Source: Anisus vortex (lineage: Eukaryota > Mollusca > Gastropoda > Planorbidae). From it: a stretch of 64,000 nt of DNA. Of this stretch, positions 6,726 to 49,781 are shown piece by piece (the first letter of the stretch is position 1; each line of letters opens with the position of its first letter). The stretch lies in contig OX421497.1 in assembly GCA_949126835.1 (NCBI GenBank), forward strand, positions 45,380,715 to 45,444,714. The letters are read 5' to 3'. Made by a program: the position numbers and the translations under genes. The notes below the pieces were generated by a model that saw only the letters and a list, made by a program, of their open reading frames with translations, was not told where the DNA came from and did no database searches.

Positions 6726-7019
6726 TATTGTGAGCTATTTTGAGTGAAAGAGAGTGGATATGAATGAATTAAAATCTATTGTCGACAAATGGGTGTGTGT
6801 AGGCGTGTATGTGTGTGTGTGTGTGTGTGTGTGAGCTCAGTGATGTTATTGTAAAGATAGGAATGAATGAACTCAAGTCAGTTAGGGGGAATCGTGAATG
6901 AAGGGAGCGAACACGGGGTGTGTAAGATAGGAAGACTGGACATTCGGGGTATGAGAGCTGAACAGGAGAGAGCTGTAGGGATTTTAATTGGTGATTCGGT
7001 ATGTACATGTAAAATAAAG
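6726..7019 (+). repeat. truncated 5' LTR
   Basis: Matches 9677-9971 of the 3' LTR, including a GT microsatellite and AATAAAG near the end. It begins TATTGTGAGC where the 3' LTR has TGTTGTGAGC. The match stops after 'aaaataaag', where the internal deletion begins. Confidence 0.85.
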
Positions 7020-8899: not shown

Positions 8900-9676
8900 A
8901 TTGTAGCAGTAACTTGCAAAAGAACATTTGTACATGAACAATTTTTTTTATTATTAAAGCAACAGGACTGTGTTGTTTTTTTTAAAACAGATTGATAAAT
9001 AAATGTGTAACAGTGCTCAGTCAGAATGACAAGAGGATTTGAGGATTGTGTACGCTCAAATATTTTTTGTCATGAGCACAAATGATGACAATTTTTCTTG
9101 TATTCATTATTTTTTTATTTTTTTTTTCTCTTCATTGTCAATGTGATTATATTCGCTTCTAAAGCAGAGTTATAATAAATGTATAACTTGTTCATACAAG
9201 TGTAATTAAAATGATTAGATCTATTCTAATGTCGTATTTATCATTAACTTAATGAGGTTACGGTAAAAGATATTATTATGGTAGTATTTTATAATAGGTT
9301 GTAGCGTTTTAATATGTATATAAAATGTAAAAGAACTTGACTATGTTATATGTAACCTACGGTATAATTCATTATTATGATCGCATTATTTGATTTCATG
9401 ACGTATTTAATATATATGCTTATAATATTATAATTAATGTGTAGATACTTTTGTGTACAAACTATTATTGTGTGGAAGTCAGTTCTGTTTGGTATAGATG
9501 TATTGTAAAAATAGATATAAACTATTTTGGTTGCACAAACCACGAAATTGTGATTAACTTTAAGGTATGTGAATGAAAGGTATAGACAAAATAACTCGGA
9601 TTGTAGTGTACATTTTTTTTCTTTTATTTTAGTTATCAGGCAATTAAAGGATTAATCGCCTTAGGGTGGGAGTAGA
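8900..9676. other. non-coding tail of the Gypsy element
   Basis: AT-rich, with no open frame I can assign. It ends in a purine-rich tract immediately before the 3' LTR, the expected place for the polypurine tract. Confidence 0.6.
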
Positions 9677-26042: not shown

Positions 26043-27052
26043 GTAAAGGCACAGATGCAGTCATCTTTGTGTAAATGTATTCATTGTTCATGAAATACAT
26101 TTATTTTTAATGTGATATGTCAGATACAATTAGTTAATAAGTGAATATTTTTTTGAATACATACATATTTACAACAGTCGGTCGCTTATCTCCCCTTTGT
26201 TTAGTGCTAGACCTATCACGCATAGTGATTTTCAATGGCACGCGTAAGACTCACAAAAAGTAAATTCAAGTACCACATATGTCACATTTGTAAGGTCCTT
26301 TGAAGACAACCCTTTTTTTTCATTCTGGTTGAAAGATCCGAGGTGGTGATTTTGACAGACTGAAACTCCGCCTTTCGTATTTGATTGGGTGTTGGACCCA
26401 ACCTAAATTCTAGAAAACCACACTCCGGAGCACTCACGCTTCGTGTGGACGCGCAACAATTTGTGCACCCTTCTGACCACACAATTCTCTACCACTACAC
26501 TGAGACCTACTCATTTAGAAAATAAATGCATACATGCTTGTTTTATCTGTAGATTATTTATGAATAAAGGCAATATACAAAGTAATGTAATTATTTATAT
26601 TTATCTGAAAAAAAAGTGACATAATTTTTAATGTATTTTCTTACTATCTCGGCTCACATTGGCTGCGTTATCATTAATTTTATTTGTATTCGGAGCTGGC
26701 AACATTTTCTAACCAATGTTACTGCTACTACTGGGAATTTACAGATGTTTTTATAAAGAAAACAGGATGGGTGCTGTAACTAATTTAATCGTGGGTAAGG
26801 TCGTTTTTGGTTGCAGCTCACATTCCTCAGGACAACCTTAACATCAGTATTTTCAGAGCATCATATCCACAAAGTCCCATACATAATTAATAGTTTTAGA
26901 CTGGGGATGTGGAGATATCAATGGATTGAAATTGGTTACATAAGATACTCCTAAACATGTACAAGACAAAAAGTTATTACAAGCAAAATATTACAGAACA
27001 AGTAAGTACATCTATTTTAGAGCATCATGTACAAGTATAGTTATCTAATTAC
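26043..27052. other. intergenic DNA without a recognised gene
   Basis: Unique-looking AT-rich sequence. A 66-codon minus frame (26282-26482) shows no family resemblance and no convincing splice sites. Confidence 0.5.
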
Positions 27053-30123: not shown

Positions 30124-31974
30124 TTACATGCGCGACAACGTCTCAGCGACCACATTTTGTTTACCTGGTAAATATAACACATTTAAATTATATGCTTGGA
30201 GGAATAAGCTCCAGCGAATAATTCTTTGGTTCTGTTTAACCCTGGAAAGGAAAACTAAAGGGTTATGATCAGTTAAAATATCAATTGGATATGGAGAACC
30301 ATTGATATAAAAATCAAAATGTTTCAATGCCAGGATTAATCCTAAAAGTTCCTTTTCTATCACACTATAGTTTCTTTGATGCTTATCAAATTTTTGAGAG
30401 TAAAAACTAATCGGGTGTTCCAGTGAATCATCACCCTTTTGGGAAATGACCGCTCCCATCCCTGTATCACACGCGTCAACGGTAATTTTAAAGGGTTTAC
30501 TGTAATTGGGTGTTACTAATACAGGTGCCTCAGAAAGAACATCTTTTAATTTATCAAAGGCCTGGTGGCATTTATTAGACCATTTGAAAGTGCAATTCTT
30601 CTTTAATAGATTTGTTAATGGACATGCAATGGTTGAGAAATTTTGACAGAACCGACGGTAGTACCCCGCCATCCCGAGAAAACTACGGAGTTGTTTACAG
30701 GTTTCAGGAACAGGGAACTCACGAATAGCCTTAACCTTTGCATTTAATGGTTTTACCAAACCATTTCCCACCATGTGACCTAGATACTCGATGGTTGCAT
30801 GGCAGAACTGACTCTTAGTCAAGTTTATGGTGAGATTAGCATGAGTCAATTTCGTAAATAACAAATGTAGTTGATCTAAATGAGATTTAAAATCGTCACT
30901 AAAAACAACAATATCATCGAGGTATGCGTGACATTTAGGAATGTCCTGAGTAATGGTATTTATTAACCGTTGAAAAGTAGAGGGTGCATTAACCATACCA
31001 AAGGGCATGACCTTAAATTTGTACAGTCCGTCAGGGGTTACAAACGATGATATCTCCTGAGCCCTCTCCGTCAGTGGAATCTGAAAATACGCCGTCAATA
31101 GGTCAATTTTCGTCACAAACTTAGCATTACTCACTTGATCTATTAGATCGTCGATTCTTGGTATTGGATAGGAATCAGTTTTTGTCACTTTGTTTACCTT
31201 ACGGTAGTCCACACAAAACCTCATGGATCCATCGGCCTTAGGTACCAATACGCAAGGGGAAGACCAGTCACTACTACTAGGTGTAATAATGTCATTGTCA
31301 AGCATGTAGTGAACCTCTTTACGGATGCATTCTAACTGGATAGGATTTGACCTGTATGGATGTTGTTTAATAGCTTTAGTATTTTCATCTAAAATAACAT
31401 CATGCTTAACTACACTAGTTCTACTAGGTACATCTCCAAATAAATGGATATTTTCATTAAATAGACCTTTGATAGCGGATTGTTCGCAATCGGGTAAATG
31501 TGCCAATTTTTCATTTAGGTTTTTCAGAGCCTTTGTATTTTGCAGTTTGCTTTCTGCCAATTCACGTTCAATTTCGGGTGAATTATTCGCGACTCTAATA
31601 ACAGTGTTTACCGAGGCAACAACATTTTGTTCTTCTCTGGTAATGTATGGTTTCAACATATTGATGTGGCACACTCGTTGCGATTTCCGTCTATCAGGGG
31701 TCTTTACAAGATAGTTAACCTCACTAAGCTTAGCCATAACCTCATAGGGTCCTGTAAACTTGGCACTCAGGGGTTGACCAGACAGTGGCGTCAGCATGAG
31801 AACTCTATCACCAGGTTGGAAGATACGGGTTCTTGCGTTGACGTCATAATAGACCTTCAACTTGTCTTGTGCCTGCAAAAGATTAGATCTGACAACTTTT
31901 AATGCATTATACAGTCTATTTTTAAAATTTTTTAAATTATTAAGATGCCGGACGAGCCCCCAATCTTTTGTCAC
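30124..31974 (-). CDS. pol: Gypsy pol remnant: integrase C-terminus, reverse transcriptase, RNase H (open frame)
   Basis: Uninterrupted 616-codon frame, but its first ~10 codons are LTR/primer-site sequence fused by the deletion, and the apparent initiator is GTG, so the native start is lost. Domain order: helix LKNFKNRLYNALKVVR, integrase C-terminal GPY/F domain (QPGDRVLMLTPL, KFTGPYEVMAKL, VCHINMLKPY), a linker of about 100 residues, then reverse transcriptase (SPCVLVPKADGSMRFCVDYR, KIDLLTAYFQIPL, MPFGMVNAPSTF, catalytic YLDDIVVFS). RNase H follows (ITVDACDTGMGAVISQ, SVIEKELLGLILAL, DILTDHNPLVFL), ending in the usual ETLSRM. All RT and RNase H acidic residues are present. The catalytic integrase core and protease are not encoded here. 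Integrase upstream of RT in one frame matches Gmr1-like elements. Confidence 0.9.
   Translation of the reverse strand: MTKDWGLVRHLNNLKNFKNRLYNALKVVRSNLLQAQDKLKVYYDVNARTRIFQPGDRVLMLTPLSGQPLSAKFTGPYEVMAKLSEVNYLVKTPDRRKSQRVCHINMLKPYITREEQNVVASVNTVIRVANNSPEIERELAESKLQNTKALKNLNEKLAHLPDCEQSAIKGLFNENIHLFGDVPSRTSVVKHDVILDENTKAIKQHPYRSNPIQLECIRKEVHYMLDNDIITPSSSDWSSPCVLVPKADGSMRFCVDYRKVNKVTKTDSYPIPRIDDLIDQVSNAKFVTKIDLLTAYFQIPLTERAQEISSFVTPDGLYKFKVMPFGMVNAPSTFQRLINTITQDIPKCHAYLDDIVVFSDDFKSHLDQLHLLFTKLTHANLTINLTKSQFCHATIEYLGHMVGNGLVKPLNAKVKAIREFPVPETCKQLRSFLGMAGYYRRFCQNFSTIACPLTNLLKKNCTFKWSNKCHQAFDKLKDVLSEAPVLVTPNYSKPFKITVDACDTGMGAVISQKGDDSLEHPISFYSQKFDKHQRNYSVIEKELLGLILALKHFDFYINGSPYPIDILTDHNPLVFLSRVKQNQRIIRWSLFLQAYNLNVLYLPGKQNVVAETLSRM
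31945..31962 (-). promoter_or_regulatory. primer binding site, tRNA-Pro
   Basis: The minus strand reads TGGGGGCTCGTCCGGCAT, 6 nt inside the 5' LTR. It matches the tRNA-Pro primer site known from gammaretroviruses at 17 of 18 positions. Confidence 0.8.
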
Positions 31975-32566
31975 GTGCGAAATCAGCTACTGACGTTAGA
32001 TGATATTTTTAGTAATGTATTATTATATATTATTTTGATTCATATCCATCTTGGATCTCACAAGGTTGTATAAGAATTTATATTGATGTTATTGAATTAG
32101 ATTTGATGTTTATTTGACTCGTGGCGATATGAATCTTTTGTGTATAAAGTGATTTAGATAAACTGTACCTTAATATATAGGAAATCCACAATCCTGTTTG
32201 AAATTGAACACAATTTTATTCCAACAAGTTGAGATGATAAAATATAACAATACCACAGAATACATGTATCAGTATTATATAATGAAACTTAATCAGTTGA
32301 GATTCTTCTATAATGAATTAAGCCTAATCCTATCTTTAAGAAAGTGGTCAAAAACAGTCCTCACACATTAGCGCCCAAACTAGAACTAAACTAAACGGTA
32401 TTCCACCCTCGTGCATATGACGTATTTTATCGCTATGACGTAGTGTCTAGACATATGCATGTTTTATTCCTAACACGGAAACATTTCGGGTTTAAGATTA
32501 TTTCATTTTAACTTTAGTTAATAATAACAGAACCAATATAATATGGAAATAAATCTACTCGTAACA
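31969..32566 (-). repeat. 5' LTR of the young Gypsy element
   Basis: 598 nt; see 28666-29264. It provides the promoter for transcription leftward. Confidence 0.92.
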
Positions 32567-34199: not shown

Positions 34200-36232
34200 C
34201 GAGATAGTCTTGTTAGTAGGATTCGTATGACGGGATAGTATGGAGCCGGGTTGTACTAGTCTTGTTAGTAGGATTCATATGACGAGATAGTAGTATGGAG
34301 CCGGGTTGTACTAGTCTTGTTAGTAGGATTCGTATGACGAGATAGATAGTATGGAGCCGGGTTGTACTAGTCTTGTTAGTAGGATTCATATGACGAGAAA
34401 GTATGGAGCCGGGTTGTACTAGTCTTGTTAGTAAGATTCGTATGACGAGATAGTATGGAGCCGGGTTGTACTAGTCTTGTTAGTAGAATTCATATGACGA
34501 GATATTATGGAGCCGGGTTGTACTAGTCTTGTTAGTAGGATTCATATGACGAGATATTATGGAGCCGGGTTGTACTAGTCTTGTTAGTAGGATTCATATG
34601 ACGAGATATTATGGAGCCGGGTTGTACTAGTCTTGTTAGTAGGATTCATATGACGAGAAAGTATGGAGCCGGGTTGTACTAGTCTTGTTAGTAGGATTCG
34701 TTTGACGAGATAGTATGGAGCCGGGTTGTACTAGTCTTGTTAGTAGAATTCATATGACGAGATATTATGGAGCCGGGTTGTACTAGTCTTGTTAGTAGGA
34801 TTCATATGACGAGATATTATGGAGCCGGGTTGTACTAGTCTTGTTAGTAGCATTCATATGACGAGATAGAATGGAGCCGGGTTGTACTAGTCTTGTTAGT
34901 AGCATTCATATGACGAGATATTATGGAGCCGGGTTGTACTAGTCTTGTTAGTAGGATTCATATGACGAGATAGAATGGAGCCGGGTTGTACTAGTCTTGT
35001 TAGTAGGATTCATATGACGAGATAGAATGGAGCCGGGTTGTACTAGTCTTGTTAGTAGCATTCATATGACGAGATATTATGGAGCCGGGTTGTACAAGTC
35101 TTGTTAGTAGGATTCATATGACGAGATATTATGGTGCCGGGTTGTACTAGTCTTGTTAGTAGGATTCGTATGACGAGATAGTATGGAGCCGGTTTGTACT
35201 AGTCGTGTTAGTAGGATTCATATGACGAGAAAGTAGTAAGGAGCCGGGTTGTACTAGTCTTGTTAGTAGGATTCATATGACGAGATAGTATGGAGCCGGG
35301 TTGTACTAGTCTTGTTAGTAGGATTCGTATGACGAGATAGTAGGGAGCCGTGATGTACTAGTCTTGTTAGTAGGATTCGTATGACGAGATAGTATGGAGC
35401 CGGGTTGTACTAGTCTTGTTAGTAGGATTCGTATGACTAGATAGTATGGAGCCGGGTTGTACTAGTCTTGTTAGTAGGATTCATATGACGAGATAGTATG
35501 GAGCCGGGTTGTACTAGTCTTGTTAGTAAGATTCGTATGACGAGATATTATGGAGCCGGGTTGTACTAGTCCTGTTAGTAGGATTGATATGATGGGATAG
35601 TATGGAGCCGGGTTGTACTGTTCTTGTTAGAAGGATACGTATGACGAGATAGTATGGAGCCGGGTTGTACTAGTCTTGTTAGTAGAATTCATATGACGAG
35701 ATAGTGTGGAGCCGGGTTGTACTAGTCTTGTTAGTAGGATTCATATGACGAGATATTATGGAGCCGGGTTGTACTTGTCTTGTTAGTAGGATTCATATGA
35801 CGAGATATTATGGAGCCGGGTTGTACTAGTCTTGTTAGTAGGATTCGTATGACGGGATAGTAGTGTTTAGCCGGGTTGTACTAGTCTTGTTAGTAGGATT
35901 CATATGACGAGATAGAATGGAGCCGAGTTTTACTAGTCTTGTTAGTAGGATTCATATGACGAGATATTATGGAGCCGGGTTGTACTAGTCTTGTTAGTAG
36001 AATTAATATGACGAGATATTATGGAGCCGGGTTGTACTTTTCTTGTTAGTAGGATTCATATGACGAGATAGTATGGAGCCGGGTTGTACTAGTCTTGTTA
36101 GTAGGATTCGTATGACGGGATAGTAGTGTTTAGCCGGGTTGTACTAGTCTTGTTAGTAGGACTCATATGACGAGATAGTAGTGTTTAGCCGGGTTGTACT
36201 AGTCTTGTTAGTAGGATTCATACGACGAAGAA
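34200..36232. repeat. 52-bp minisatellite array
   Basis: About 39 copies of tagtcttgttagtaggattc plus an atatgacgagat..atggagccgggttgtac end. Small length changes occur at the atag/atatt/atagtag position. The right edge stops about 30 nt from the splice donor of the candidate exon at 36264-36284. Confidence 0.92.
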
Positions 36233-36263
36233 AGGGAAAATGACGACGGTGATGCTGTCTTAC

Positions 36264-36284
36264 GAAGGTCTGTGGCACTTGGCT
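36264..36284 (-). CDS. 21-nt micro-exon, leftmost one found
   Basis: Strong acceptor (tttactttcctaacag) and donor (CTTC|gtaaga) around AGCCAAGTGCCACAGACCTTC, phase 1, encoding a junction Gln then PSATDL. The 52-bp minisatellite begins about 30 nt into its downstream intron. Confidence 0.5.
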
Positions 36285-39200
36285 CTGTTAGGAAAGTAAA
36301 GTTTAATACTGATAAGTAAGAACACATTTATATGGCATTTATATACATTTAGTGTATTTATTAACATATAGAGCCCATATACATATGTATATATATATTC
36401 ACTTAATCTTACTCGAAATATTGCAACTGTGACGCATGAGGGCGAGTCTGGAGTTAGCCCCTACTAAGCTGTCAGTTAGGTGCTAACAAAAATAATTAGC
36501 TCCTAGGGCGCCCTTTCCCCCCATTGCCTGTATTTAAACGACTGTGTATATTGAGAGAGAGAGAGAGAGAGAGATAGAGAGATAGCGATAACGCTGAGAG
36601 AGAGGGGTGAAAAGATGTGGCTTTGAGTGGGTAATTGTTCAAATGGTATTATTAATAAGAATATGTTGAAAAAGGTATAGTCAAATAAAGAACATTAAAT
36701 GTATACCAAAATAGACTATTAGACCACCAGCACTGAAGGCCTAAGTCACACCCCTGAGTGCTTCCTGTGGAACTGGACTCCAAAATTCAGAGCACATCCT
36801 GCAATTGGTGTCCACTCTACAGAGATGACCCATAACCAGGCCTGGCCTCAGGGAGTCACCGTGGAGGAAAAGTTTTGGGACCCTAAGCCATTCTTACCCG
36901 GTGTGTCAGAGAAACAGGACCCGCCAGTCTGACACAACAAAGGAAAATGAAACTGGAACGCTAAAGAAGAAGAAAAATTATACCAAAGTATTTATCAAAC
37001 CCAATAACTTGCGTTGAAAATAAATGGTATAGATGAAGAAATTTCGAGCATACGAAGAATACTTTATAAGTAAGTAGGTGTCCCATTCAGACCGACTTAT
37101 TCAAGGGGCAAGTAGAGGAAGGCGTTCACTTGAATCAGTGGCCATGGCATACAACGAGATGTGTGACCAGCGCAATGCCTTGACGACTTACTTATCATCC
37201 AACCAATCTCAGGAACCCCTTAGGGCCGGATAGACATAGAAACACCCGCCACACCTGGTAACAAATTCTAGCCTTCACCAGGATACGAGCTCGGGACTTT
37301 TGTACGTACATCGCCAACACATCGTTTAGTCTAGTCTAATTTCTAATTCGCAGCCCAATCACCCTACAAAAATAATGAACTTTTACTTACGAGTTAATGG
37401 TTGGGCTCGTTTGCAACAACAGGAACATAGAGTCTCTTTGACTTTGACATTGGGACCTGATTAGATACAGGTATTTTAAAATAATTCATTACAAATATGA
37501 AATAGTATTTGTTTCTGTTTGTTCATTGTCAAAAAGTCTTTAAAAATATTTTAAAAAACTGGGTTTTATGTCACAGATAATTGAACCATTAACATTGTCG
37601 ATTGTGGCCATAAAATCGTTTGTTCTATTAGTTTAAAAAAAAACATTTTCGTGTATTTCGGCAATTTGTCTATAACTTTAATCTTAAAGGAAAATGTCCT
37701 TGATGTATCTGGAAGAAAGTCGGCAATTGGTTTACCATTATTTAAATTTCAATTATATCCACAAAATTCACGCTGAATGGGGATGCCATGGAAGCAAACG
37801 ACCATTATAGTCAACAAATGTTATATTTATAAAGTAAACTGCGATTTGATTTAACGTCTCACCCTTTCTCTCTTATTTCACACCTACAACAACTAGATCT
37901 TAACATTAACTGTATCGCCTTCCATTTAGAGTATTCGGCAGATTTCATTGACGCTGTGCCAGACTTTTATTAAGGTTATAATATTAATGTATGAAACTTA
38001 TTAACTGGCTTTTCATTTAGCAGTTTATATTATATTATGATTGATTTATTGCGATATCTCTGAACAACATTACACACACATATATATATATATATATCTT
38101 TTTAGACCATACTTACACACCAATAAAGCAAACTGTAAAGTATATTACCAACAAACTGGCCACTGGCCAACTTTTTTTAATAGCCAACGTATGGCTCTAC
38201 GACTTTAGATCATATTAGATCTATATTATGAAAGATGATCAACACATTATAGTGTCTGTTAGTAAACATCCAGTAGGATGAACTGTAGTTGATGCAGACT
38301 TTTTATTTCTATGTTTATGTAATAACAATATTCTAGTCTTCAAGGTATATAATATAATTACCTTTTAAATCTTGCCCTGAATGCATAACAAATAATAATG
38401 GTATTCTTTTCTTGAATGTATAAAATGCAATTACTTTTTCATTATTGTCTAAAAACTATGAACATAATTACCTTTTTTATTATTGTCTATAAAGTATAAA
38501 ATTTAATTACCTTTTATTTCTTGTACTAAAGGTAACAGTGATTACCTCTAAAAAAATTTGTAAATTATAATTACCTTTGAATATGTTTCTTTAAGGTATA
38601 CACGTTTAATTACCTTTTACTTCTTGTCTTGATGGTTTAGTAGATATCCTTGAATGCGAACTTTTGATGCTTTTGAGTTCTATGTATTATTTAAAGAAAA
38701 ACAACAAAACACTTACACTTAGATTCCGTACATAGCGATGACACCTTAGACCACACACATGTGTAATGTAATTTATTTTACGTTTGAAATTAAATAGACG
38801 TGCTTTTTATTCTTAGAAATAGGAATATTTTTTAACAATTGTGTATACAATTTAATATATAGTAAAGTATAGTACCCTTCGGACCGAATTGATCCATAGG
38901 TCCGGTGATGCAGCGTTCACCAGTTTCTGTGGCCACGGCATATTAGGTGATTGTGTGGCTAGCACTATGCACAGCCGCCTTTACTATACCCCAACTAATG
39001 TCAGGTTCCCATCAGGGCTGGGTAAACTCAGGGAAACCCTAAAGTACCGGGATAAAAATCCTAGCCTGCACCAGGAATCGAACCCGGGACCTTCGGTACG
39101 CCAGCGAACACGCTGCCGCACGGCCAACATGCCCCCTATTGAATATAGGACGAGGCTTTTTATGTTCTACTGTTATCTACGAGACAAAAAAGGGTCACCA

Positions 39201-42200
39201 TAAAATATATTTACATTTTAATGTTTGCTTTAATAAGTTAATTAAAACTATATAAAAATCTTGTCGTATCTTATATATTACAGACGCTTTTTCTATAAAG
39301 AATATTATTGCGTCCTATGCTCATCCGTGGTCTGAGTCTAGTCTTGCATTTTTATTAATGTTTTAAATGAGGTTAAGTTACTGGTTTTCCTAAGTTTGTT
39401 CAAGCAACCATTCTCGAAAGACACTCGGTAAGAAAGAGTACTTATGTGCATTTGTTCTCGCATAAATGATAAGGAAAGTGTTTTTGTCGTTATGCTTTTC
39501 TAAGCATTACAAAAGGTTTTTATTGGGTTGTATTTCTAAATTTTACTACTTTACTCTTGAAGTTATATTAAATAATTACTAGTCTAATTACCTTTTAGCT
39601 CTTGTCTTGAAGGTTTGATAGATATCTCTGATGGAGAAACTGTCATGTCTATGGGTTCTATAATTAACGATTAAAACAAAAAACCTTAAACTTAGATCAC
39701 ATTCATTTAATTTAATAGATATCACAGTTTAGATAAGCACTGGTGTGGGGTAATTTACGTTTAAAATCACATTGTGAGGCCGGGTGGTCTTGTCGTAAGC
39801 ACACCGAACACACACAAAAAATAGAATAAACGTGTGTAAGCTTATAAGACAAATAATCATTTATCGTAACATCATTACAAATTACCTTTTAATTCTTGTC
39901 TTGAAGGTTTAGTAGATATCTTAACATGTGTACTGTTTTTGTCGTTGAGGGCTATATTTAAATCATAAAAAAACAACAACATTGAAACTTATATCACTTG
40001 TAGGCCTAACATATTTTGTATAGACATCACAACAATGACAACGTAAACCCCGCACAGGAGTGTAGGGTAGTTCACGTTTAAAAACAAATAATGCGAAGTC
40101 TTCTTTTCCTAATATCAATATAAATATTACTATGTTGACAAATTGTCAAAAGTTTAATATAGACATGAAGTTTTTTCGTCTATTATTGTAATGTATGGAT
40201 GAACGGTTCATCACAAAATAATATCATATATATATATCTTATAAAATTGACAAGTGTTTTTATAATTATGTGTTACAGAATAGATTTTTTTATTTTGGGG
40301 GGTGGGGACATACCATAACCATCTTTCAATATGACGAATTTTCATATTTATTTTTAGAAATGAAATTCAATTCCGTGTTTAAAGACACAGATACATAATA
40401 CTTATACAAATATCCATATCTAGTATTAGTAAAAAGAACTTAAAAGCAGTTTATGCCTGATCATGATAAGAGACTGGGTTTCATGTTGCAGATAATTGAG
40501 CTATTAACACAGACATTGTCGATTCTAACCGTAGGCTTACAATCTTTCTTCTATTAATTTAAGAGAGTAATTTTCATGTGTTTTAACCTTTCGTCCATAC
40601 CTTCAATTTCCAATGGAAAAGTTCCTCGATGTATCTAAAAGCAAGCTGGCAATCGGTTAACCATTATTTAATTTTTTTATGATATGCATAATATCCACGA
40701 TGAATGGGATGTCATGGCAAATTTAATAGTATGAAGTAAAAGAATTCATTTTTCATTTTATTTTACATGAGAATTTACGAGAATGTACCTTGTTTATATT
40801 CCTTTGATTTCCGTCGGCAACAGCAATTGCAAAGTCGGGATTTACTTTTCCTTCTGGAATGTTTCTCTAAAAGTGTAACAGACAATAAAATATCCAACAT
40901 TAAAAAGTTACGTTGGACTCAGAATAAAGTTATACAATGACTAATGACAAGTTGCTTTAGGTTGTTGTAATTCTAAGCTGCACCACCTTTAAGCAACTCA
41001 TATGTCTACATTTTTTTTCAAGCTGTTTTTTTTAATTAGCATTAATTTAATTGAGATTGGAAGTTACACAATTGACAAACACAATTCATATCTTTAACCG
41101 GAATGCGCAACTGATAATTTTCCTTAAACCAAGAGCATCAGTTAGAATTGTAACAAGACTAGCAAGCCTAAATAAAACAAATATGATGCTTGTCCATCGG
41201 TTTCGATGAAGGCCGTCCTCTGACAGAGTAATAGTTGCTTGTGGGTCGGGAGATGGCTGATGAGGGCTATTCTTGCCCGAAAGTGTTGGGAGAACGGATG
41301 CGAGGCTTGATAGCCAGTGGTAGCGGAGCTGACTTCGCTGGATCTTCTGAGGTGTCGCATTTCAATTGCGACCAGCCGCATTTCTCTTCGTGGGCTGCTT
41401 CTCCAGTGAAGGTCATGTTGCGCCAAGAGGATCGGTCCTCGGCTGGGTTTATCCAGTTGTAAGGATCGATTTCAAAGTTTCTTCAGGGGGCCTTCAGGGT
41501 GTCTTTAAACCGCTTCTTTTGCCCTCCGCGCAAGCGCTTTCCTGCGACTAGTTCACCATAGAAAATCTTCTTGGGTAGTCGTCCTTCTGGCATGCGCACA
41601 GCATGACCTGCCCATCTGAGCTAGGCTTTTCCTAGTAGGGCGTAAATGCTTGGCATATCGGTCTGTCCGAGCACCTCAGTGCTAATGTAGGTGGTAGAAA
41701 TCGAACAATGAAAATAAAGGCGGAAAATGCAAATGTCTTTGTCCATATGAGATTAAGTTTAAATTAAATGTAACTGAATTTTTTCATTACATTCATCTAA
41801 AAGGACACTATAGTTGTACATAACATTCATCTATAAAGACAATATACTTTTACATTACATTCACCTCTGTGGGATTTCCTAGAATACAGCGAAGTTCCTC
41901 GCGACGATACAGTGAACGCTGGGGGGAGAAAAATTAAACAATATACATCAAGAGAAATTACTGGGATTTTAAAAATAAAAATGCAAGACTAGACTTAAGC
42001 CCTTGATAAGTGTATCGCACATAAGCCTTCTCTATCCAGCGAATATATGTTATACATTTTAATAAGTGAAGACGTTTCTTTAAAAAAAGTATCATAAACA
42101 TATTGTAAATGCAATAACTTATTATATTATATGTTTTTAAGCCAATTAAACTAGTATCAATGCAATTGTGTAGAAGTCATTCACGTAGGCCTACTTTCTT

Positions 42201-45200
42201 TTAAGACTGACATTTAAAAAGGTTTTCAAAACATTATTGACAATGGATTTAACTTAAGCCTTAACAAAAAAATACATATTTGTATGAGTTGAATTAACGC
42301 TCTGTGGACCGCACTATCAGGTAAGCAGCTTTGGGAAAGGAGACGCAAATAGTACAGGCCATCCTTGCAACAAAGGTCACAGAGAGGAGAGCCATCAGGA
42401 AAGCAAAAGTCAGTGACTTGCGTTTTTTGGACAGACGGATGCCATATATTTCATAAAATATAAAGTCATAGCAAACAATAAAACACGTATATCGGTATTC
42501 ACCATAAAAACAAATTAACATATTATCATAAAGTATCCCGTCGGACCAAATTGATCCATGGGGCCGGTGATGCAGCGTTCAACAGTTTCTGTGGCCACCG
42601 CGTACTAGGTTATTGTGTGGCCAGCACTATGCACGGTCGCCTTTACTTTACGGGGAAAAATGCTAGCCTGCACCAGGATTCGAACCCTGGACCTTCGGTA
42701 CGCCAGTCGAACGCTCTGCTGATCGGCCACCGAGCCCCTTGGTTTGCTTTTATGAGTTTATTTCGGGTTCCGTTACAAATGGCAAAAATAGTCACTAGGT
42801 GTTTGTTTCTCTGACAATTCTTCATGAGAGAGTGTAAATATGGAACAGATTTAACTTATTTAGTATACAAACCTTTGGAATCCGCCTTTGAGGAGAAAGA
42901 TGTCGCAATGGAGTGTCCACTTTTCTTTTCTCTATGTTCTGATTATTTAGAATTACAATGTTACTCAATTACTCTGAAACGCTTAAACAAAATACTATTT
43001 AAAAAACAAAACAACGTAAAGACAAACTCGTTATTTAATAGTAGGCTATATACAAGCTGCAAATGATAAAAGGTAAGTTTGAATTAAATAATACTATTCA
43101 AATAACTTACATTTAATTGTCTCACTTTTTCAATGTATTTGATGTTTCAGAACATAATTCTATTTTTAAGGGAAATGGTATCTTAAAAAAAAAAAAAACA
43201 ACGTATATTTATTCAAAGCGGGTGAAGTTTTTTGTACAAAGATAATTTGAACGTTTTGTTTACCTGATGTATGGTCTATAGATTTCTGTTTAGAGCAACG
43301 AAAGCAGCCACAAGACTTCTTTTTCTTAGTATGTTTATCTGAAGGTGTAAAAATAAATTAGCACTGAAAATGAAGTAAAAAGTATCCCGTGGGACCTAGT
43401 TGATCTATGGGGCCGGTGGAGCAGCGTTCAACAGTTTCTGTGACCACGGCATTCTAGGGGATTGTGTGACCAGCACTATGCACTGCAGCCTTTACTTAAC
43501 CTCAACTAAGGTCAGGAACACCCTCCAGACCCAAAAAAAAATAATATTTGACTTCAACCCAGGATTCGAACCCAGGACCTTCGGTACGCCAGTCAACCGC
43601 GGTGCGACCGTGCCTCCTTAGCAATGAAAAAAAATATATTGGACAGTGGTAGATATAGAGTCTAAATACATCCTAACAAACTTTATAGTAAACAAAGCTT
43701 CTGGTCCAGATGAAATGCCAGCAAAACTGCTTAAATAACTCAATAATGATCTCCAATATTTAAAATACTTTTTCAGGCCTCTCTAAACCAGGGCAACTGG
43801 AAAATAGCCAATGTCACCCCCCCCCCTTTTTTTTTTTTAAAAAGTAAATAAATCTGTCCCGGAAATTACAGACCTGCCTCCCTTTTAAGCATAACATGCA
43901 AAATACTTGAACATATAATATATAGTAGCATAGTAAATCACTTAGACAAACACTATGCACTGTGCCCACACGTTCCTTATCCGTTTTGTGAGAACAAATG
44001 CATATAACTACTCTTTCTTCCCGAGTGGCATCGAAGAATGGAATAGGTTTCCTGAACAAGCCAGGAAAACATAACTTAACATCATTTAAAACACTAATAT
44101 AAATGCAGGACTAGACTCGGACCATGGATGAGGGTGGGACGAAGCAATCTTCTTTAAAGAAGGAGCGTCTGTAATATATAAGATCATCATCATCAATCCC
44201 ATGACCGTTGAGGTCGTTGAGGGGAGCGAATGGACACTACGGCAGTCAACTTTCTCCACTTTTGCCTATCTTGTGCGGTGGTCAATAGTTGAGTCAACTG
44301 TAGCCCTGTCCAATCCTTGACATTGTCGAACCAGCATCTCCGCTGACGGCCTCTCTTACGCCCACCTTCTACCGTGCCCTGGAGGATTGTTTTTGTCAGG
44401 ATATTGTGCCGCAACACATGACCGGACCATGTCAGTTTGCGTCGTTTGATTGTTGCCATAATGTTTTCTTGAGGGCCTACAATTGAGGCTATTCTGTCTC
44501 ACACATACGCATTAGTCCTGTGTTCTACGTAGGAGATTCGAAGTATTTTTCTCATGCATTTATTTTCGAACGCTTGCAAGTTGTTTTCAGTTGCTGATAG
44601 AAGCGTCCATGTCTCAAATCCATACAGAGCAATAGTTCTGACTAGGGTTCTGTAAAGTCTGAGCTTTGTTGGGAGACCAATGCTTTTACTGGTCCAGATT
44701 AGGCGAGCCATTTGCGCCATTGCAGTCCCAATCCTTGCTTGAATTTCTGGCTCACAGTGTCCGTCTGCGGATATGGTTGCTCCTAGATATTTGAAACTAT
44801 TTACTTCTTCCAATTGTTGTTGGTTCAATATAATGTTTGCACTTCTGGCATCAGTGGTGTTCATCATTATTTTACTCTTTTCTGAACTGATTTCCATTCC
44901 GTATGCCTTTGCTCTATCAGCAAGCTCTATCAATATATTAAATAAGTATAACCAATTCTTATAATGGTTTGTTACAATCGTTACGTAACGATGCACAGAT
45001 TACGTTGTTTGTCCCATATTTCACCGAGGATGACCACGTGTCCCTATATCTTTGTACCCTCTGTGGTGGCTTATTAGGCCTATATACGCGCCCTGTAGAA
45101 AGTGCCTCTTTGCATAGTTCACACTTAGAGGATGTGGCTTTAAGAAATGGCAGCTCTATTCAGAGTGCATGACTTTGGATTTTCTTTGTGGCTGTTATAG

Positions 45201-47725
45201 CTCATCTTTTCACATTCAATGCTACTGCCAAGAGTGTGTGCCAGTTAAAAATAGCATGAAGCTAATTGGCTCGGTTCTTAAACGTAAGTAATAAATGTTA
45301 TCAAAAACATATATAAAAGTATTGTCTAGTTATGTATAAAATTGTATTTATCATCTCTGCAGTGGGAGTCCGAACAAAGACTATAGTAAGATGGACCGAT
45401 TGCTTTGATATTTCTGCTATTTGATAACGTGAAACACTTAGTTTCGTAATTTCCCATCGCACTTTCGGTTTAGTAATTCGCTTTGATTTTCTCAATGGAA
45501 AATTAAGATTGAAATTTTAAGTTGTATAGAGTTGAAGGAGCGTAGAAGTCATTCAAGTCCGTTGCGCACGGAAAAAAAGAACCAATAAGCTAGACTAGAG
45601 TATCAATGTGAGACTAGAGTATCAATGTGCGACTAGAATATCCATGTGAGACTAGAGTATCCATGTGAGACTAGAGTATCCATGTGAGACTAGAGTATCC
45701 ATGTGAGACTAGAGTATCCGTGTGAGACTAGAGTATCCATGTGAGACTAGTGACTAGAGTATCCATGTAAGACTAGAGTATCCATGTGAGACTAGAGTAT
45801 CAATGTGAGACTAGAGTATCAATGTGAGAGTAGAGTATCAATGTGCGACTAGAATATCCATGTGAGACTAGAGTATCCATGTGAGACTAGAGTATCCATG
45901 TGAGACTAGAGTATCAATGTGAGACTAGAGTATCAATGTGCGACTAGAATATCCATGTGAGACTAGAGTATCCATTTGAGACTAGAGTATCAATGTGAGA
46001 CTAGAGTATCAATGTGAGACTAGAGTATCAATGTGCGACTAGAATATCCATGTGAGACTAGAGTATCCGTGTGAGACTAGAGTATCCATGTGAGACTAGA
46101 GTATCCATGTGAGACTAGAGTATCAATGTGAGATATATAGACTAGAGTTACCTTTGGTCTCTTTCCTTGAATGACGGGACTCTTTCTGTGAAGGAACTTT
46201 CATCGTTTCCTCAAGTTCTATGTTTTCGATATATGAAAAACAATTGCTAAATTAAATATAGACAGAAATATAGTCATTTGTAGCTTAAAATGTAGGCATA
46301 TATAGCTTAAAATATGGGCATATATAGATTATAATATAGGCATTTATAGCTTATAATGTGGGCATATATAGCTTATAATATGGGTATGAATAGTTTATAA
46401 TGTGGGCATATATAGCTTATAATGTGGGCATATAAAGCCCCCGAGAGACCTTAAAGACATTGGAAGGTCTTTAACTATCCCTATAGGCCAGCGGTTCCCA
46501 AACTGTGGGTCGAATGACCATTTAATAATAATAATAATATTTGTATAGCGCTGCCAACAAACATAATGTAAGCTCAGAGCACGTTTAACATACAACTAAG
46601 AATACGAGGGTCGCCAATTATAGTCGCCAAAGACCTTCGGAAAACGTTCGTGTTGTCATTAGAAATATAGGCCTTAACCTATACCGGTATCTTGCAATAT
46701 TGAATAAATTTGTTTTAATGTTTTCTTTTCTTTTAAATGATTAATCGCTATTCTTTATTTAGGTTCGATTTGTAACAATAAAAATACATCTTGCATATCA
46801 AATATTTACATTGCATTAAGTACAATTCATAACAGTCGCAAAATGTAGGTATACAAATATTTCTTTTTTTTTTTTTTTTTTGGGGGGGGGGGGAGGGTCG
46901 TCAGAACATGAGAAACAGTATAAAGGGGTCGCGGCCTAAAAAAGTTTGGGAACCACAATAATATTAAAGGTGGAAATATCACACACAAAGAACAACTTTA
47001 TGAATAAGTTTGCATATTTGTTCGTAATTAAAGTTTTTCATGCTAGTTATCATTTTTCTTTGTAATAATTCTTATTTTAAAAAATTTAAACTGTGACGTT
47101 GAGATTATAAGCTTCTAACAATTGAGTGATCCAGTTACCTTTTTTAGCATGCATCGACATCAGCGAAGTCATGCGTGATAAATTTGATTCTGTGTTAGAA
47201 CATGAACATATTGTATAGAGATGGACCGGTATAATACGTAAGGAGTTGGATAAACAGGAAGATTTATCTAAATATATTTGTAGCTAAATATAAATCAAAC
47301 ATAGATACATTATTTGATACATTGTTAAATGTGCTGAAAGTTGGGAAAATTGACATATAGATAGACGGATAGATAAACAGACAGACAGACATGTAGATGG
47401 ATAGATAGATAGATAGATGCATAGATAGATAGATGAAGGATGGATAGAGGGATAAATGGTGGATGGATGAACAGACTGAGAGATAGATAGATAGACAATA
47501 TATACAGATAGAGAGGTAGTTGCATAAAAAGCTAGAAAGATAGATAGATAAATATATAGTAGTTGGATAGTATATTAGTTATATTGATAGACAGATAGAT
47601 AAATACATAGATTAAAAGATATATAGATAGATAGTTGATAGATAAATCGATATATTGATGATAGATATCTAAATAGATGAATAGACAGAGAGACAGATAG
47701 ACAGACAGATTGATTGATAGATAGG

Positions 47726-47822
<97 letters not shown>

Positions 47823-48273
47823 GATAGATAGATAGATAGAACTAATGTATTCACCTTGAGCTCCTGGTCTAGAAAAAAAGGAAGTTGTCATTTTTAGTGA
47901 GAGTGGTGATTGCTTCTTGTCACCAATATCAACTTGATGAAGAAAACAAACAACAACATTCACATTTATCAATAATTTATAAAGTCAATCGTCACATAAT
48001 GGAATATAAACGTAACATTAGAGCATAAGTTAGAAAATATACTAAGTCTATATACTATATACTATATACTATAATTAGACATTCATTTTTATAACCTGCC
48101 GAATGCGTCTTCCTGGCGTGGCAACATGAAACCAAGGTAGACAATTTGCTTCTCAAGTTTGGTTTAGATTTGATATCAGTAACTCTCGTTAAGGACTGTG
48201 CATGGGATATTGAAGCTTGTAGAGGACAAATCAATGCATACAATATATTCATTTCGACAGACTTAAGTTCGAT
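36264..48273 (-). CDS. micro-exon gene encoding a basic modular protein, unknown family
   Basis: Read on the minus strand. Candidate first coding exon 48252-48096 (ATG at 48252; exon may extend to 48273), then 47932-47855 (78 nt), 47189-47139 (51), 46217-46152 (66), 43338-43264 (75), 41918-41865 (54), 40866-40789 (78), 39951-39886, 39657-39592 and 38679-38614 (66 each), possible 15-nt exons, 37456-37391 (66) and 36284-36264 (21). Every internal exon has AG before and GT after, is a multiple of three, and is phase 1 at both ends. Joined in order they contain no stop. About 296 residues are visible; no terminal exon was found, so it continues left. The product is rich in Lys, Arg and Ser. A CxCC-type module occurs in two or three exons and an [15 protein letters not shown] end in three. 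The start [18 protein letters not shown] could be a weak signal peptide. Several transposons and minisatellites lie in the introns. I recognise no homologue; function unknown. Confidence 0.6.
36535..36605. repeat. (GA)n microsatellite
   Basis: Dinucleotide GA run with gata interruptions around 36553-36605. Confidence 0.85.
36720..37330. other. two decayed repeats in the intron
   Basis: 36720-36965 is a comparatively GC-rich segment without a recognised frame, probably an old retroelement. 37085-37330 resembles the SINE family in reverse (ggcgttcacttgaatcagtg, gtgaccagcgcaatgcc) but is heavily mutated. Confidence 0.45.
37391..37456 (-). CDS. 66-nt cysteine-module exon of the micro-exon gene
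   Basis: Acceptor ctgtatctaatcag, donor TAACTC|gtaagt. Encodes [20 protein letters not shown], a third CxCC module. Phase 1, ending in C rather than G. Confidence 0.65.
37480..37850. repeat. intronic duplicate of 40420-40740
   Basis: Shares, in order, actgggttttatgt, agataattga, cattgtcgatt, gatgtatct, ggcaat.ggttaaccattattta and gatgccatgg with 40460-40715. It accompanies the paralogous cysteine exons, showing that exon and intron were copied together. Confidence 0.7.
38362..38525 (-). CDS. cluster of candidate 15-nt micro-exons
   Basis: Three 15-nt segments, each with AG before and |gtaatt after, all phase 1: 38525-38511 (TACAAGAAATAAAAG, junction V then QEIK), 38486-38472 (ACAATAATAAAAAAG, D then NNKK) and 38376-38362 (GGCAAGATTTAAAAG, G then QDLK). 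They match the last 15 nt of the 66-nt exons plus donor, so they look like tandem duplicates of that exon end. A fourth unit near 38430 has a damaged donor. Whether they are spliced in is unknown; 15-nt exons are hard to recognise. Confidence 0.35.
38614..39951 (-). CDS. three paralogous 66-nt exons
   Basis: Exons 39951-39886, 39657-39592 and 38679-38614, all phase 1 with donor AAAAG|gtaatt and an acceptor like tatag. Encoded: [40 protein letters not shown] and [20 protein letters not shown], each then K plus a shared junction codon. The second half is nearly invariant, the first half variable. They arose by exon duplication. A LINE (39250-39500) and a SINE (38866-39136) sit between two of them. 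Confidence 0.75.
38866..39136 (-). mobile_element. tRNA-derived SINE
   Basis: Full-looking copy: ggtgatgcagcgttcaccag, actaatgtcaggttcccat, then ccaggaatcgaacccgggac (reverse B box). Confidence 0.8.
39250..39500 (-). mobile_element. LINE family A 3' end
   Basis: Reverse complement of the family 3' UTR (tatattacagacgcttttt, ctcatccgtggtc, gtctagtcttgcattt) and the end of the coding region. The TATAAGAT tail is at the left edge. Confidence 0.75.
40789..40866 (-). CDS. 78-nt cysteine-module exon of the micro-exon gene
   Basis: Acceptor acacttttag, donor AACAAG|gtacat. Encodes [20 protein letters not shown] then KEYKQ. A second AG 13 nt downstream (attccag) would break the frame, so the first is preferred. 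The exon and its left flank are duplicated at 37391-37456. Confidence 0.7.
41150..41700 (-). pseudogene. LINE fragment (family D) with C-terminal zinc-finger-like motif
   Basis: Minus-strand phrases [20 protein letters not shown] and [12 protein letters not shown] are typical of ORF2 C-terminal regions of non-LTR elements. They are followed by [13 protein letters not shown], which resembles the H..H half of a terminal zinc finger. Stops and shifts interrupt it. Confidence 0.65.
41865..41918 (-). CDS. 54-nt phase-1 exon of the micro-exon gene
   Basis: Acceptor atttttctccccccag, donor CAGAG|gtgaat. Encodes [17 protein letters not shown]. Confidence 0.65.
42294..42521 (-). CDS. possible membrane-protein fragment, 75 codons
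   Basis: The frame starts [20 protein letters not shown], has a basic stretch (RLSKKRKS) and a strong hydrophobic segment ([14 protein letters not shown]) before a stop. Two membrane spans with a basic loop could be a remnant of a receptor, but I see no diagnostic motif and no clear acceptor. It lies in an intron of the micro-exon gene on the same strand. Confidence 0.25.
   Translation of the reverse strand: MLICFYGEYRYTCFIVCYDFIFYEIYGIRLSKKRKSLTFAFLMALLSVTFVARMACTICVSFPKAAYLIVRSTER
42531..42738 (-). mobile_element. tRNA-derived SINE
   Basis: ccggtgatgcagcgttcaac, accaggattcgaaccctgga (reverse B box). Internally shortened. Confidence 0.8.
43264..43338 (-). CDS. 75-nt cysteine-module exon of the micro-exon gene
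   Basis: Acceptor ttttacaccttcag, donor CATCAG|gtaaac. Encodes [19 protein letters not shown] then IDHTS. The KH(T/S)..K start and clustered cysteines match the exon at 40789-40866. Confidence 0.7.
43380..43619 (-). mobile_element. tRNA-derived SINE
   Basis: ccggtggagcagcgttcaac, cccaggattcgaacccagga, with a deletion in the middle. Confidence 0.8.
43640..44190 (+). pseudogene. LINE family A with internal deletion
   Basis: Begins in the reverse transcriptase N-terminal region ([14 protein letters not shown], then frames reading [18 protein letters not shown]-like and [13 protein letters not shown] phrases) and jumps near 43955 to the C-terminal end and family 3' UTR (atgcaggactagactcggac, ggagcgtctgtaatatataa). 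Several frameshifts. Confidence 0.65.
44193..45240 (-). pseudogene. LINE family C ORF2 C-terminal part
   Basis: Two minus frames: [47 protein letters not shown], then [36 protein letters not shown] and DWTGL. A single break near 44480-44510 separates them. To the right (44990-45240) is a degenerate segment whose minus strand includes [12 protein letters not shown], possibly the zinc-finger tail of another LINE. Confidence 0.75.
45386..45545. mobile_element. half copy of the TIR element seen at 6012
   Basis: caaagactatagtaagatgg, ctgctatttgataac and tagtaattcgctttgatttt match 6012-6175. Confidence 0.6.
45592..46140. repeat. 19-bp minisatellite
   Basis: About 28 copies of gagactagagtatccatgt (ccatgt/caatgt variants). 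The right edge is about 12 nt from the splice donor at 46151. The donor flank (gactagagttac) resembles the unit (gactagagtatc). Confidence 0.9.
46152..46217 (-). CDS. 66-nt phase-1 exon of the micro-exon gene
   Basis: Acceptor atcgaaaacatag, donor CCAAAG|gtaact. Encodes [20 protein letters not shown]. The same length and basic, serine-rich character as the exons at 38614, 39592 and 39886. A 19-bp minisatellite starts within about 12 nt of its donor. Confidence 0.65.
46270..46440. repeat. ~21-bp imperfect tandem repeat
   Basis: Repeated 'gcatatatagcttataatatgg'-type units about eight times. Confidence 0.75.
46489..46955. mobile_element. hAT-type MITE containing a LINE tail
   Basis: Left end CAGCGGTTCCCAAACTGTGG and right end AAAGTTTGGGAACCAC are inverted. 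Inside, 46514-46590 is the reverse-oriented 3' end of LINE family B (tttgtatagcgctgccaaca) with its ATT tail. 46862-46893 is a poly-T/poly-G run. Confidence 0.65.
47139..47189 (-). CDS. 51-nt phase-1 exon of the micro-exon gene
   Basis: Acceptor ttctaacacag, donor AAAAAAG|gtaact. Encodes [16 protein letters not shown] plus junction Glu. Confidence 0.6.
47340..47845. repeat. (GATA)n microsatellite
   Basis: Pure GATA runs between 47720 and 47840 with degenerate GATA/GACA flanks back to 47340. It ends about 10 nt from the donor of the exon at 47855. Confidence 0.95.
47855..47932 (-). CDS. 78-nt phase-1 exon of the micro-exon gene
   Basis: Acceptor ttcatcaag, donor CAAG|gtgaat. Encodes [18 protein letters not shown] then FSRPGAQ. 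Its end (TCTAGACCAGGAGCTCAAG) aligns base by base with the TCAAGACAAGAGCTAAAAG end of the 66-nt exons. A GATA microsatellite begins about 10 nt into the following intron. Confidence 0.6.
48096..48273 (-). CDS. candidate first exon of the micro-exon gene
   Basis: Open from an acceptor-like ttttgtag (before 48273) to donor GGCAG|gttata. From ATG 48252 it gives 52 codons plus one base: [20 protein letters not shown], then [14 protein letters not shown] and [11 protein letters not shown]. The phase-1 end fits the next exon (47932-47855), which begins [11 protein letters not shown] after the junction. It may be a first exon or be preceded by another; the exon at 49670-49781 also ends in phase 1 and could be an alternative to it. 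Confidence 0.45.
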
Positions 48274-48529
48274 CTACAAAATAATGACACAATATTATTA
48301 TAATTAACACATTTTGCTTAATGATACGTTCATTCAAACAGTTAGTTTGTTTTAATTTTAATTTTATATATAGATGCAAATGAATGTATCCTTGACAGAG
48401 CAAGACCAAAAGTAGACGAGCAATCTTTAGCAAATGTTGCATGTAGCTAATAAAACAGTCTATGGCTTCAGCCATTATGCTATAACAGGGACCTTCGTAG
48501 TTATTATTTCTGGTATTGTTATTCTGGAT

Positions 48530-49669: not shown

Positions 49670-49781
49670 TTGCGCTGAATGTGATGGTTGAAAAATCTGT
49701 CCCATACTCCTCTGACCATTGGGCACTGGCACGGTCAACCTCCAAGCCATGGTCCTGTATATAGGTGCCAGACGCCTGAGC
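49670..49781 (-). CDS. candidate exon, unknown protein
   Basis: 112 nt between acceptor tatttccag and donor gtaaga. The phase-0 reading is fully open: AQASGTYIQDHGLEVDRASA then QWSEEYGTDFSTITFSA, ending in phase 1. Acidic and protein-like in composition, unlike the basic micro-exons. Phase would allow joining to 47932-47855, replacing the candidate first exon at 48096. The WSEEY motif vaguely recalls WxxxF/Y motifs of PEX5, which is not enough to name it. Confidence 0.4.

Follow-up and report, generated by a model that had tools for sequence, protein, structure and literature searches.

We analysed a 64,000-nucleotide stretch of the genome of the snail Anisus vortex (assembly GCA_949126835.1, contig OX421497.1, positions 45,380,715 to 45,444,714 of the forward strand), referred to below as the window and numbered from its first letter. 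Its minus strand carries, about 7 kb downstream of the gene for allograft inflammatory factor 1 (AIF1) and in the same orientation, a candidate gene composed mostly of small exons that begin and end in phase 1 and appear to be copies of one another. The initial annotation of this locus had listed minus-strand segments of 21, 66, 66, 66, 66, 78, 54, 75, 66, 51 and 78 nt, and all eleven are present (starting at 36284, 37456, 38679, 39657, 39951, 40866, 41918, 43338, 46217, 47189 and 47932, respectively), each lying between an AG and a GT, with a length that is a multiple of three and a phase-1 frame free of stops. The list itself had to be amended at three points. A first coding exon (48252-48096) lies ahead of the listed segments, one 66-nt exon of the same kind, HRE (42938-42873), had been omitted, and the 21-nt segment, which had been taken for a separate exon, is more likely the start of the terminal exon, because its donor is weak (score -1.2) and its frame continues through serine-rich codons to a TAA at 36208. 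The corrected model comprises 13 exons, 11 of them internal and 51-78 nt long, joined by 12 introns of 163-2813 nt that are all bounded by GT..AG; the coding sequence of 966 nt specifies a predicted protein of 321 residues.

Gene model and predicted protein

The first coding exon, E1 (48096-48252), begins with the ATG at 48252, is open in frame and ends in phase 1 at the donor GGCAG/GTTATA; it encodes a short hydrophobic N-terminus followed by a basic CC module, and in a search of the snail's own genome its sole match lies at this locus. The frame of E1 continues without a stop back to an AG at 48274, which leaves the position of the true 5' end uncertain. A TATA-like motif on the same strand at 48362-48372, 110-120 nt upstream of the ATG, is a candidate promoter by motif match, such motifs being frequent by chance in AT-rich DNA. 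The internal exons are all in phase 1 at both ends, and all except the last carry the serine at position -6 that is described below. In the order of transcription they are Dig (47855-47932, 78 nt) and SNL (47139-47189, 51 nt), both supported by splice motifs and an open frame and SNL also by composition; LEET (46152-46217, 66 nt), supported by composition and with a weak acceptor (-3.0); Cys1 (43264-43338, 75 nt), supported by composition and similarity to Cys2; HRE (42873-42938, 66 nt) and FTV (41865-41918, 54 nt), each supported by splice motifs and composition; Cys2 (40789-40866, 78 nt), supported by composition and similarity to the other Cys exons; LND (39886-39951), PID (39592-39657) and LKS (38614-38679), three recent copies of 66 nt each, LKS being supported by composition too; and Cys3 (37391-37456, 66 nt), which resembles Cys2 and is less certain than the ten other internal exons.

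The terminal exon (36208-36284, minus strand) begins with the 21 nt that had been listed as an exon and ends with the stop TAA. We assign it as terminal in view of the poor donor after those 21 nt, the in-frame stop at 36208 and the composition of its tail, which falls in the top 1.1% of open windows. Further downstream on the minus strand, the module-tail profile gives any donor 4.2 at most, and control donors reach 8.5. A tandem array of about 39 units of 52 bp (34205-36228, minus strand), a candidate 3' untranslated region of the gene, starts inside the final codons of the predicted reading frame. The sequence SYESY-stop, with which the coding region closes, is matched at 31 places, of which the first is that coding end, as if the array had grown from the end of the gene.

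The predicted protein is basic, with an isoelectric point of 10.06, a grand average of hydropathy of -0.94, 68 lysines and arginines as against 27 aspartates and glutamates, 61 serines and 14 cysteines, the last in four separate clusters plus one. Its modules are of two kinds. The first is rich in serine and lysine and ends roughly in [ST]-x-x-S-[RK]-x-x-x-[KR]-G, with single-exon exceptions, and the second consists of a basic stretch followed by a cysteine cluster (CNCCC, CSCCC or CGCFRC). They are arranged in three rounds of a cysteine module and then two or three Ser/Lys modules, and finally come Cys3 and the terminal exon. Going by composition, the protein is probably mostly disordered, a flexible polycation. 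The hydrophobic core of E1, ILYALICPL, spans 9 residues (mean hydropathy 2.42), with a possible cleavage at SHA/Q read by eye, and the 321-residue model contains no transmembrane-like stretch, the best 19-residue mean being 1.11. Hence any signal peptide would be weak or lacking; secretion is slightly favoured, given the short hydrophobic N-terminus.

Upstream of E1, an open segment at 49670-49781 (minus strand) runs from phase 0 to phase 1 between good-looking splice motifs (AQASGTYIQDHGLEVDRASAQWSEEYGTDFSTITFSA) and matches the genome only here. It does not join E1 in phase, and could be an alternative 5' exon of the small-exon gene or part of another gene. When the pieces 50323-50246, which is signal-peptide-like, and 50225 were searched against the genome together with the 49781 segment, two matches fell at this locus and ten weak ones at other places (E 0.006-4.8); as most of the ten fall on the 50225 piece, this piece may be a dispersed repeat. 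These sequences bear on the possibility that the gene of a larger receptor has its 5' part upstream and that the small exons encode the cytoplasmic tail of this receptor, the cysteine clusters beside basic runs being lipid-anchored and the serines phosphorylated. Both the frame of E1, which is open upstream to the AG in phase 0, and the segment 49781-49670, matched only here and likewise running from phase 0 to 1, would fit such a protein. The model, however, has no transmembrane stretch, and the other 5' candidate, at 50.2-50.3 kb, weakly matches ten other places in the manner of a dispersed repeat, so that we consider a receptor tail unlikely.

Evidence for a probable origin of the exons by duplication

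To assess the number of such exons we counted non-overlapping, open, symmetric candidates of 45-90 nt on the minus strand between 36.24 and 48.30 kb, with acceptors and donors scored by generic matrices, and likewise in 20 stretches of 10 kb from the same genome and four stretches of the remaining window, which over both strands and three phases provide 144 control counts from 48 strand-regions. The 20 loci were placed at round coordinates on nine contigs, unscreened for genes or repeats, and their counts were scaled to 12.061 kb. The region yields 14 candidates in phase 1, compared to 6 in phase 0 and 3 in phase 2, and the control counts have a mean of 2.99, a standard deviation of 2.17 and a maximum of 11.0. 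The region had been chosen because of the finding, a selection among windows for which these controls do not correct. At stricter cut-offs 9 phase-1 candidates remain against a control mean of 0.57 and maximum of 5.0, and at each of four cut-off settings none of the 48 control strand-regions equals the observed phase-1 count. The excess of phase-1 candidates on the minus strand exceeds chance. AG and GT are nonetheless so common that such segments might always be strung together. The controls hold about three phase-1 candidates per 12 kb, with which the three extra candidates of the region agree, and under a bare YAG/AGGT rule without matrices the signal is weaker and only modestly above the controls (6 in phase 1, 4 in phase 0 and 1 in phase 2, versus a mean of 1.00 and maximum of 4.82, n=120). 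Set against the excess over every control strand-region, the shared serine register and the constraint on the recent copies, an accidental chain appears very improbable.

The 14 candidates are the 11 internal exons and three others, at 38448, 36960 and 36841, which are open and in phase 1 and were left out because their number is about that expected from background; the 38448 candidate finishes with one of the broken copies of an exon end described below. A further pair, at 40634 and 37708 (DTSR), was rejected, as the block that contains it is 73% identical throughout, its exon-like part no more so than its flanks, with an indel and a lost donor in one copy. Separately, the open minus-strand segment 37863-37953 has a cysteine cluster like those of the gene and a good composition score but leaves in phase 2, and is perhaps a decayed Cys exon.

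For a comparison of residue register the exons were anchored at their donor ends and aligned without gaps; a MAFFT alignment of ten modules had misplaced the Cys exons. In ten of the 11 internal exons (Dig, SNL, LEET, Cys1, HRE, FTV, Cys2, LND, PID and LKS) the codon at position -6, counted from the donor, specifies serine and is variously TCT, TCG or TCA. When residues are shuffled within these ten exons, with the three recent copies moved together as one, this register recurs in 3 of 200,000 trials (p 1.5e-5). The serine that these exons have in common suggests that a single duplicated exon was probably their ancestor, and both a shared phase and a shared residue register, as would be looked for in tandemly duplicated symmetric exons, are found here. 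Other measures are consistent with this: 1) leave-one-out scores of the exon tails are strong for LEET, FTV, SNL, HRE and LKS, which are equalled by 0, 3, 4, 33 and 46 of 9,805 control donors, respectively; the full tail profile, itself built from these exons, ranks the ten as the ten best donors of the window. 2) The Cys exons resemble each other, with shuffle p values of 0.0005 for Cys2-Cys3, 0.0035 for Cys1-Cys2 and 0.06 for Cys1-Cys3, and the cysteine stretch of E1 resembles Cys3 (0.001) and Cys2 (0.0095) but not Cys1 (0.56). 3) By leave-one-out residue composition, 10 of the 13 exons are in the top 6% and 7 in the top 1.1% of 5,011 open windows, these being drawn from the whole 64 kb, gene included.

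The consecutive exons LND, PID and LKS are recent copies, duplicated together with upstream intron sequence. Between pairs of them, exon bases 31-66 are 83-92% identical, as against 52-66% in the upstream and 47-53% in the downstream intron, and the trio agrees at all six donor bases. The difference between the second half of the exon and the upstream intron has Fisher p values of 0.0006-0.0019 per pair, the pairs not being independent, and the nonsynonymous and synonymous divergences for that half (dN/dS, NG86 method) are 0.075/0.536, 0.075/0.137 and 0.160/0.505, on very few sites. At 38329-38629 (minus strand), an exon end with its donor is repeated (AAAAGGTAAT) in four places, the first being the LKS exon, and the repeats look like broken copies of a Lys/Ser exon end. 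The recent trio and the apparently broken ends near 38.4 kb suggest that gain and decay of modules do happen.

Relatives and neighbouring features

Genome searches covered the snail's own assembly of 863 Mb in 159 contigs. At E<=10, with 48 candidates scored, the joined protein gave 15 matches, namely the 13 exons here and two weak ones at other places (E 0.45 and 6.5); with just these two outside the locus the exons do not resemble a dispersed repeat, and no second strong locus was found in the genome. Among Pfam families none scored above its cut-off, the nearest being GeBP-like_C (E 0.013, 15.8 bits against a cut-off of 27), which was taken as compositional, and a sequence search of the PDB gave no match. 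The initial annotation had described a modular basic protein encoded by small symmetric phase-1 exons and belonging to no recognised family, a description upheld by the candidate excess, the serine register and the empty protein and Pfam searches. Among the open-licence papers listed for micro-exon genes or for skipped exons in molluscs and snails, no title or abstract opening points to a snail gene of this design.

AIF1, an EF-hand calcium-binding protein, is encoded on the minus strand at 55.5-60.5 kb, with its end near 55.48 kb (Pfam PF21008, E 1.3e-47). Its best protein match is AIF1-like by name from Biomphalaria glabrata, with 87% identity over 83% of the query, and the next-best proteins, from Arion, Physella and Lymnaea, are 79-85% identical. 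AIF1 should be a useful anchor for locating the equivalent interval in other snails. The small-exon gene is surrounded by tandem repeats and remnants of mobile elements, and a frame at 44.5-45.0 kb has a reverse-transcriptase match below the cut-off (RVT_1, E 0.00036, 20.8 bits versus 29.6). Scans of the window with Rfam at gathering scores and with ARAGORN found nothing. Elsewhere in the window, long open frames at 30124-31986 (minus strand) and 7013-8937 (plus strand) resemble, by reading alone, the polymerase regions of long terminal repeat retrotransposons; a 69-bp repeat at 23419-26044 (minus strand), with 38 copies and a 96% match, contains long open stretches that amount to a 23-residue repeat (SCLSNGNIKQNMYQTVNGHCTL...); and a nearly perfect two-copy tandem duplication of 253 bp (99%) occupies 16479-16984.

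Interpretation and comparison with known systems

Taken together, these data make it probable that a real, hitherto unrecognised and fast-changing gene lies on the minus strand downstream of AIF1, and that it was built up from one small phase-1 exon of about 22 codons, duplicated repeatedly. Several observations weigh against this reading. The donors are weak, 10 of the 12 lacking a G at +5, and several acceptors are poor; the matrices by which they were scored are generic ones, not trained on Anisus vortex, and the exon set was initially chosen by eye, so that the tests share some selection. Neither Cys3 nor E1 has a serine at -6, between 179 and 604 of the 9,805 control donors score as well as or better than the tails of Dig, Cys1, Cys2, LND and PID, leaving strong scores in five of ten exons, and composition is undistinctive for E1, Dig and Cys3 (0.11, 0.12 and 0.08 of windows as good). 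In a set of 5.8 billion proteins the full protein has no homologue at E<=1 (1250 candidates scored), nor has its 199-residue core at E<=10 (206 candidates scored). A control search of the same set with AIF1 recovered 66 proteins, many of them molluscan and including named entries from Biomphalaria, Physella, Lymnaea and Aplysia, and an annotated gene of comparable length would be expected to surface if it were well conserved. As the search requires shared 5-residue words and a length of 0.55-1.75 times that of the query, a relative that evolves fast or is annotated differently could escape it. Finally, exon bases 1-30 of the recent copies are 37-60% identical, no better conserved than intron, and there are apparent broken copies of the exon end at 38.36-38.53 kb.

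The last two points, along with the lack of relatives found, are also what would be expected of a decaying relic, once modular and now losing exons. This explanation has to accommodate all 13 model exons being open and joined by GT..AG introns, and the second halves of the recent copies being held against the intron background, and it strikes us as rather improbable. With the second half held and the first half at the level of intron, the end of the module appears to be constrained and its front free to change.

If the gene indeed arose by exon duplication, an ancestral exon would have given rise, through repeated copying, to both the Ser/Lys-rich and the cysteine-cluster modules, and, with all internal exons in phase 1 at both ends, modules could be gained, lost or skipped without damage to the frame. 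What varies would then be how many basic and cysteine modules there are, over evolution and perhaps through alternative splicing as well. The likeliest mode of action would be multivalent electrostatic binding of anionic partners such as membranes, glycans or nucleic acid, the cysteines serving to cross-link, to bind metal or to carry lipid.

Within the exon-duplication reading, the chances appear evenly balanced as to whether this is an ordinary constitutive gene, encoding a long, probably disordered protein and having no regulated skipping. Duplication alone accounts for the phase symmetry and the shared exon ends, duplicated exons having to be symmetric to be tolerated, and the three recent copies stand in a row; nothing speaks directly against it, but the inclusion of all 11 small exons in spite of weak splice sites would be somewhat unusual. 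A gene like the schistosome micro-exon genes (MEGs), in which many skipping combinations would turn one locus into many isoforms of a secreted protein, is a more doubtful version. The signal-peptide-like first exon, the chain of symmetric exons, the terminal exon and the introns of 0.16-2.8 kb would suit it, and weak donors are what optional exons would have. The expectation that skipping never creates a stop at a junction also holds, all 2048 skipping patterns being open. This follows from phase 1 combined with the usual AG/GT donor, as a codon starting with G or C is never a stop, and frame-neutral skipping would result from the duplication of any phase-1 exon. Moreover, the schistosome exons are mostly of 15 bp according to PMC10526429, as against 51-78 nt here, the hydrophobic stretch of E1 is short, and weak donors occur in the neighbouring AIF1 gene too, in three of the four that were scored (-0.1 to 3.1). 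A bolder proposal is that this is the first micro-exon-like diversity gene outside flatworms, in which skipping would combine basic and cysteine modules into many secreted polycationic proteins, convergently with schistosome MEGs and perhaps in defence; we regard it as improbable.

If transcribed, the locus would be a gene for which a very large protein set yields no relative and in which one exon has been copied about ten times. Were its exons skipped in combinations, a mollusc, a member of the host phylum of schistosomes, would have evolved the MEG design independently, and the gene would offer a simple system for how symmetric exons create protein variety. Even a constitutive gene would be a clean record of gene growth through exon duplication.

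Whether the exons may be called tiny, as in the initial annotation, depends on the definition of a MEG adopted. In the strict sense, with exons of 3-36 bp making up as much as 75% of the gene (PMC10399815), the term does not apply to internal exons of 51-78 nt, and a limit of 51 nt (PMC6600660) admits SNL alone, at exactly that length. The looser definition, with exons of 3-81 bp and introns of up to 5 kb (PMC10526429), accommodates all 11 internal exons as well as introns of 163-2813 nt. An operational rule asks for seven or more exons, of which at least half are shorter than 70 nt and a multiple of three in length and at least four of this kind follow one another (PMC7653826); here 8 of 13 exons qualify (SNL, LEET, HRE, FTV, LND, PID, LKS and Cys3), and the run of four (LND, PID, LKS, Cys3) holds only if Cys3 is real. 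As in the MEGs of schistosomes and other flatworms, small symmetric exons that can be skipped in frame hold much of the coding sequence, the introns fall within 0.1-5 kb and the protein is without known homologues (PMC10399815, PMC10526429, PMC4015677). MEGs are apparently restricted to platyhelminths (PMC4350168). All 11 internal exons are symmetric and frame-neutral when skipped, as in MEGs; unlike MEGs, a single locus was found rather than a family. No sequence relationship to flatworm MEG proteins emerged from the 5.8 billion proteins at E<=1 or <=10, in a search bound to shared 5-residue words and similar length and in a set whose content of MEG proteins was unchecked. In design the gene resembles a schistosome MEG; that it is one is not supported.

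Two other systems offer partial parallels. Gastropod metallothioneins have dense cysteines, some of them adjacent, and the present protein shares this dense, partly adjacent arrangement, but it contains only 14 cysteines in 321 residues, and no Pfam family reaches its cut-off. The genes for collagens, mucins and other repeat proteins grew through tandem duplication of a symmetric exon. The modules here differ from theirs in being strongly diverged, in alternating with cysteine-cluster modules and in scoring above the cut-off of no Pfam family; what the small-exon gene has in common with them is a series of repeated, phase-symmetric exons with a conserved residue register.

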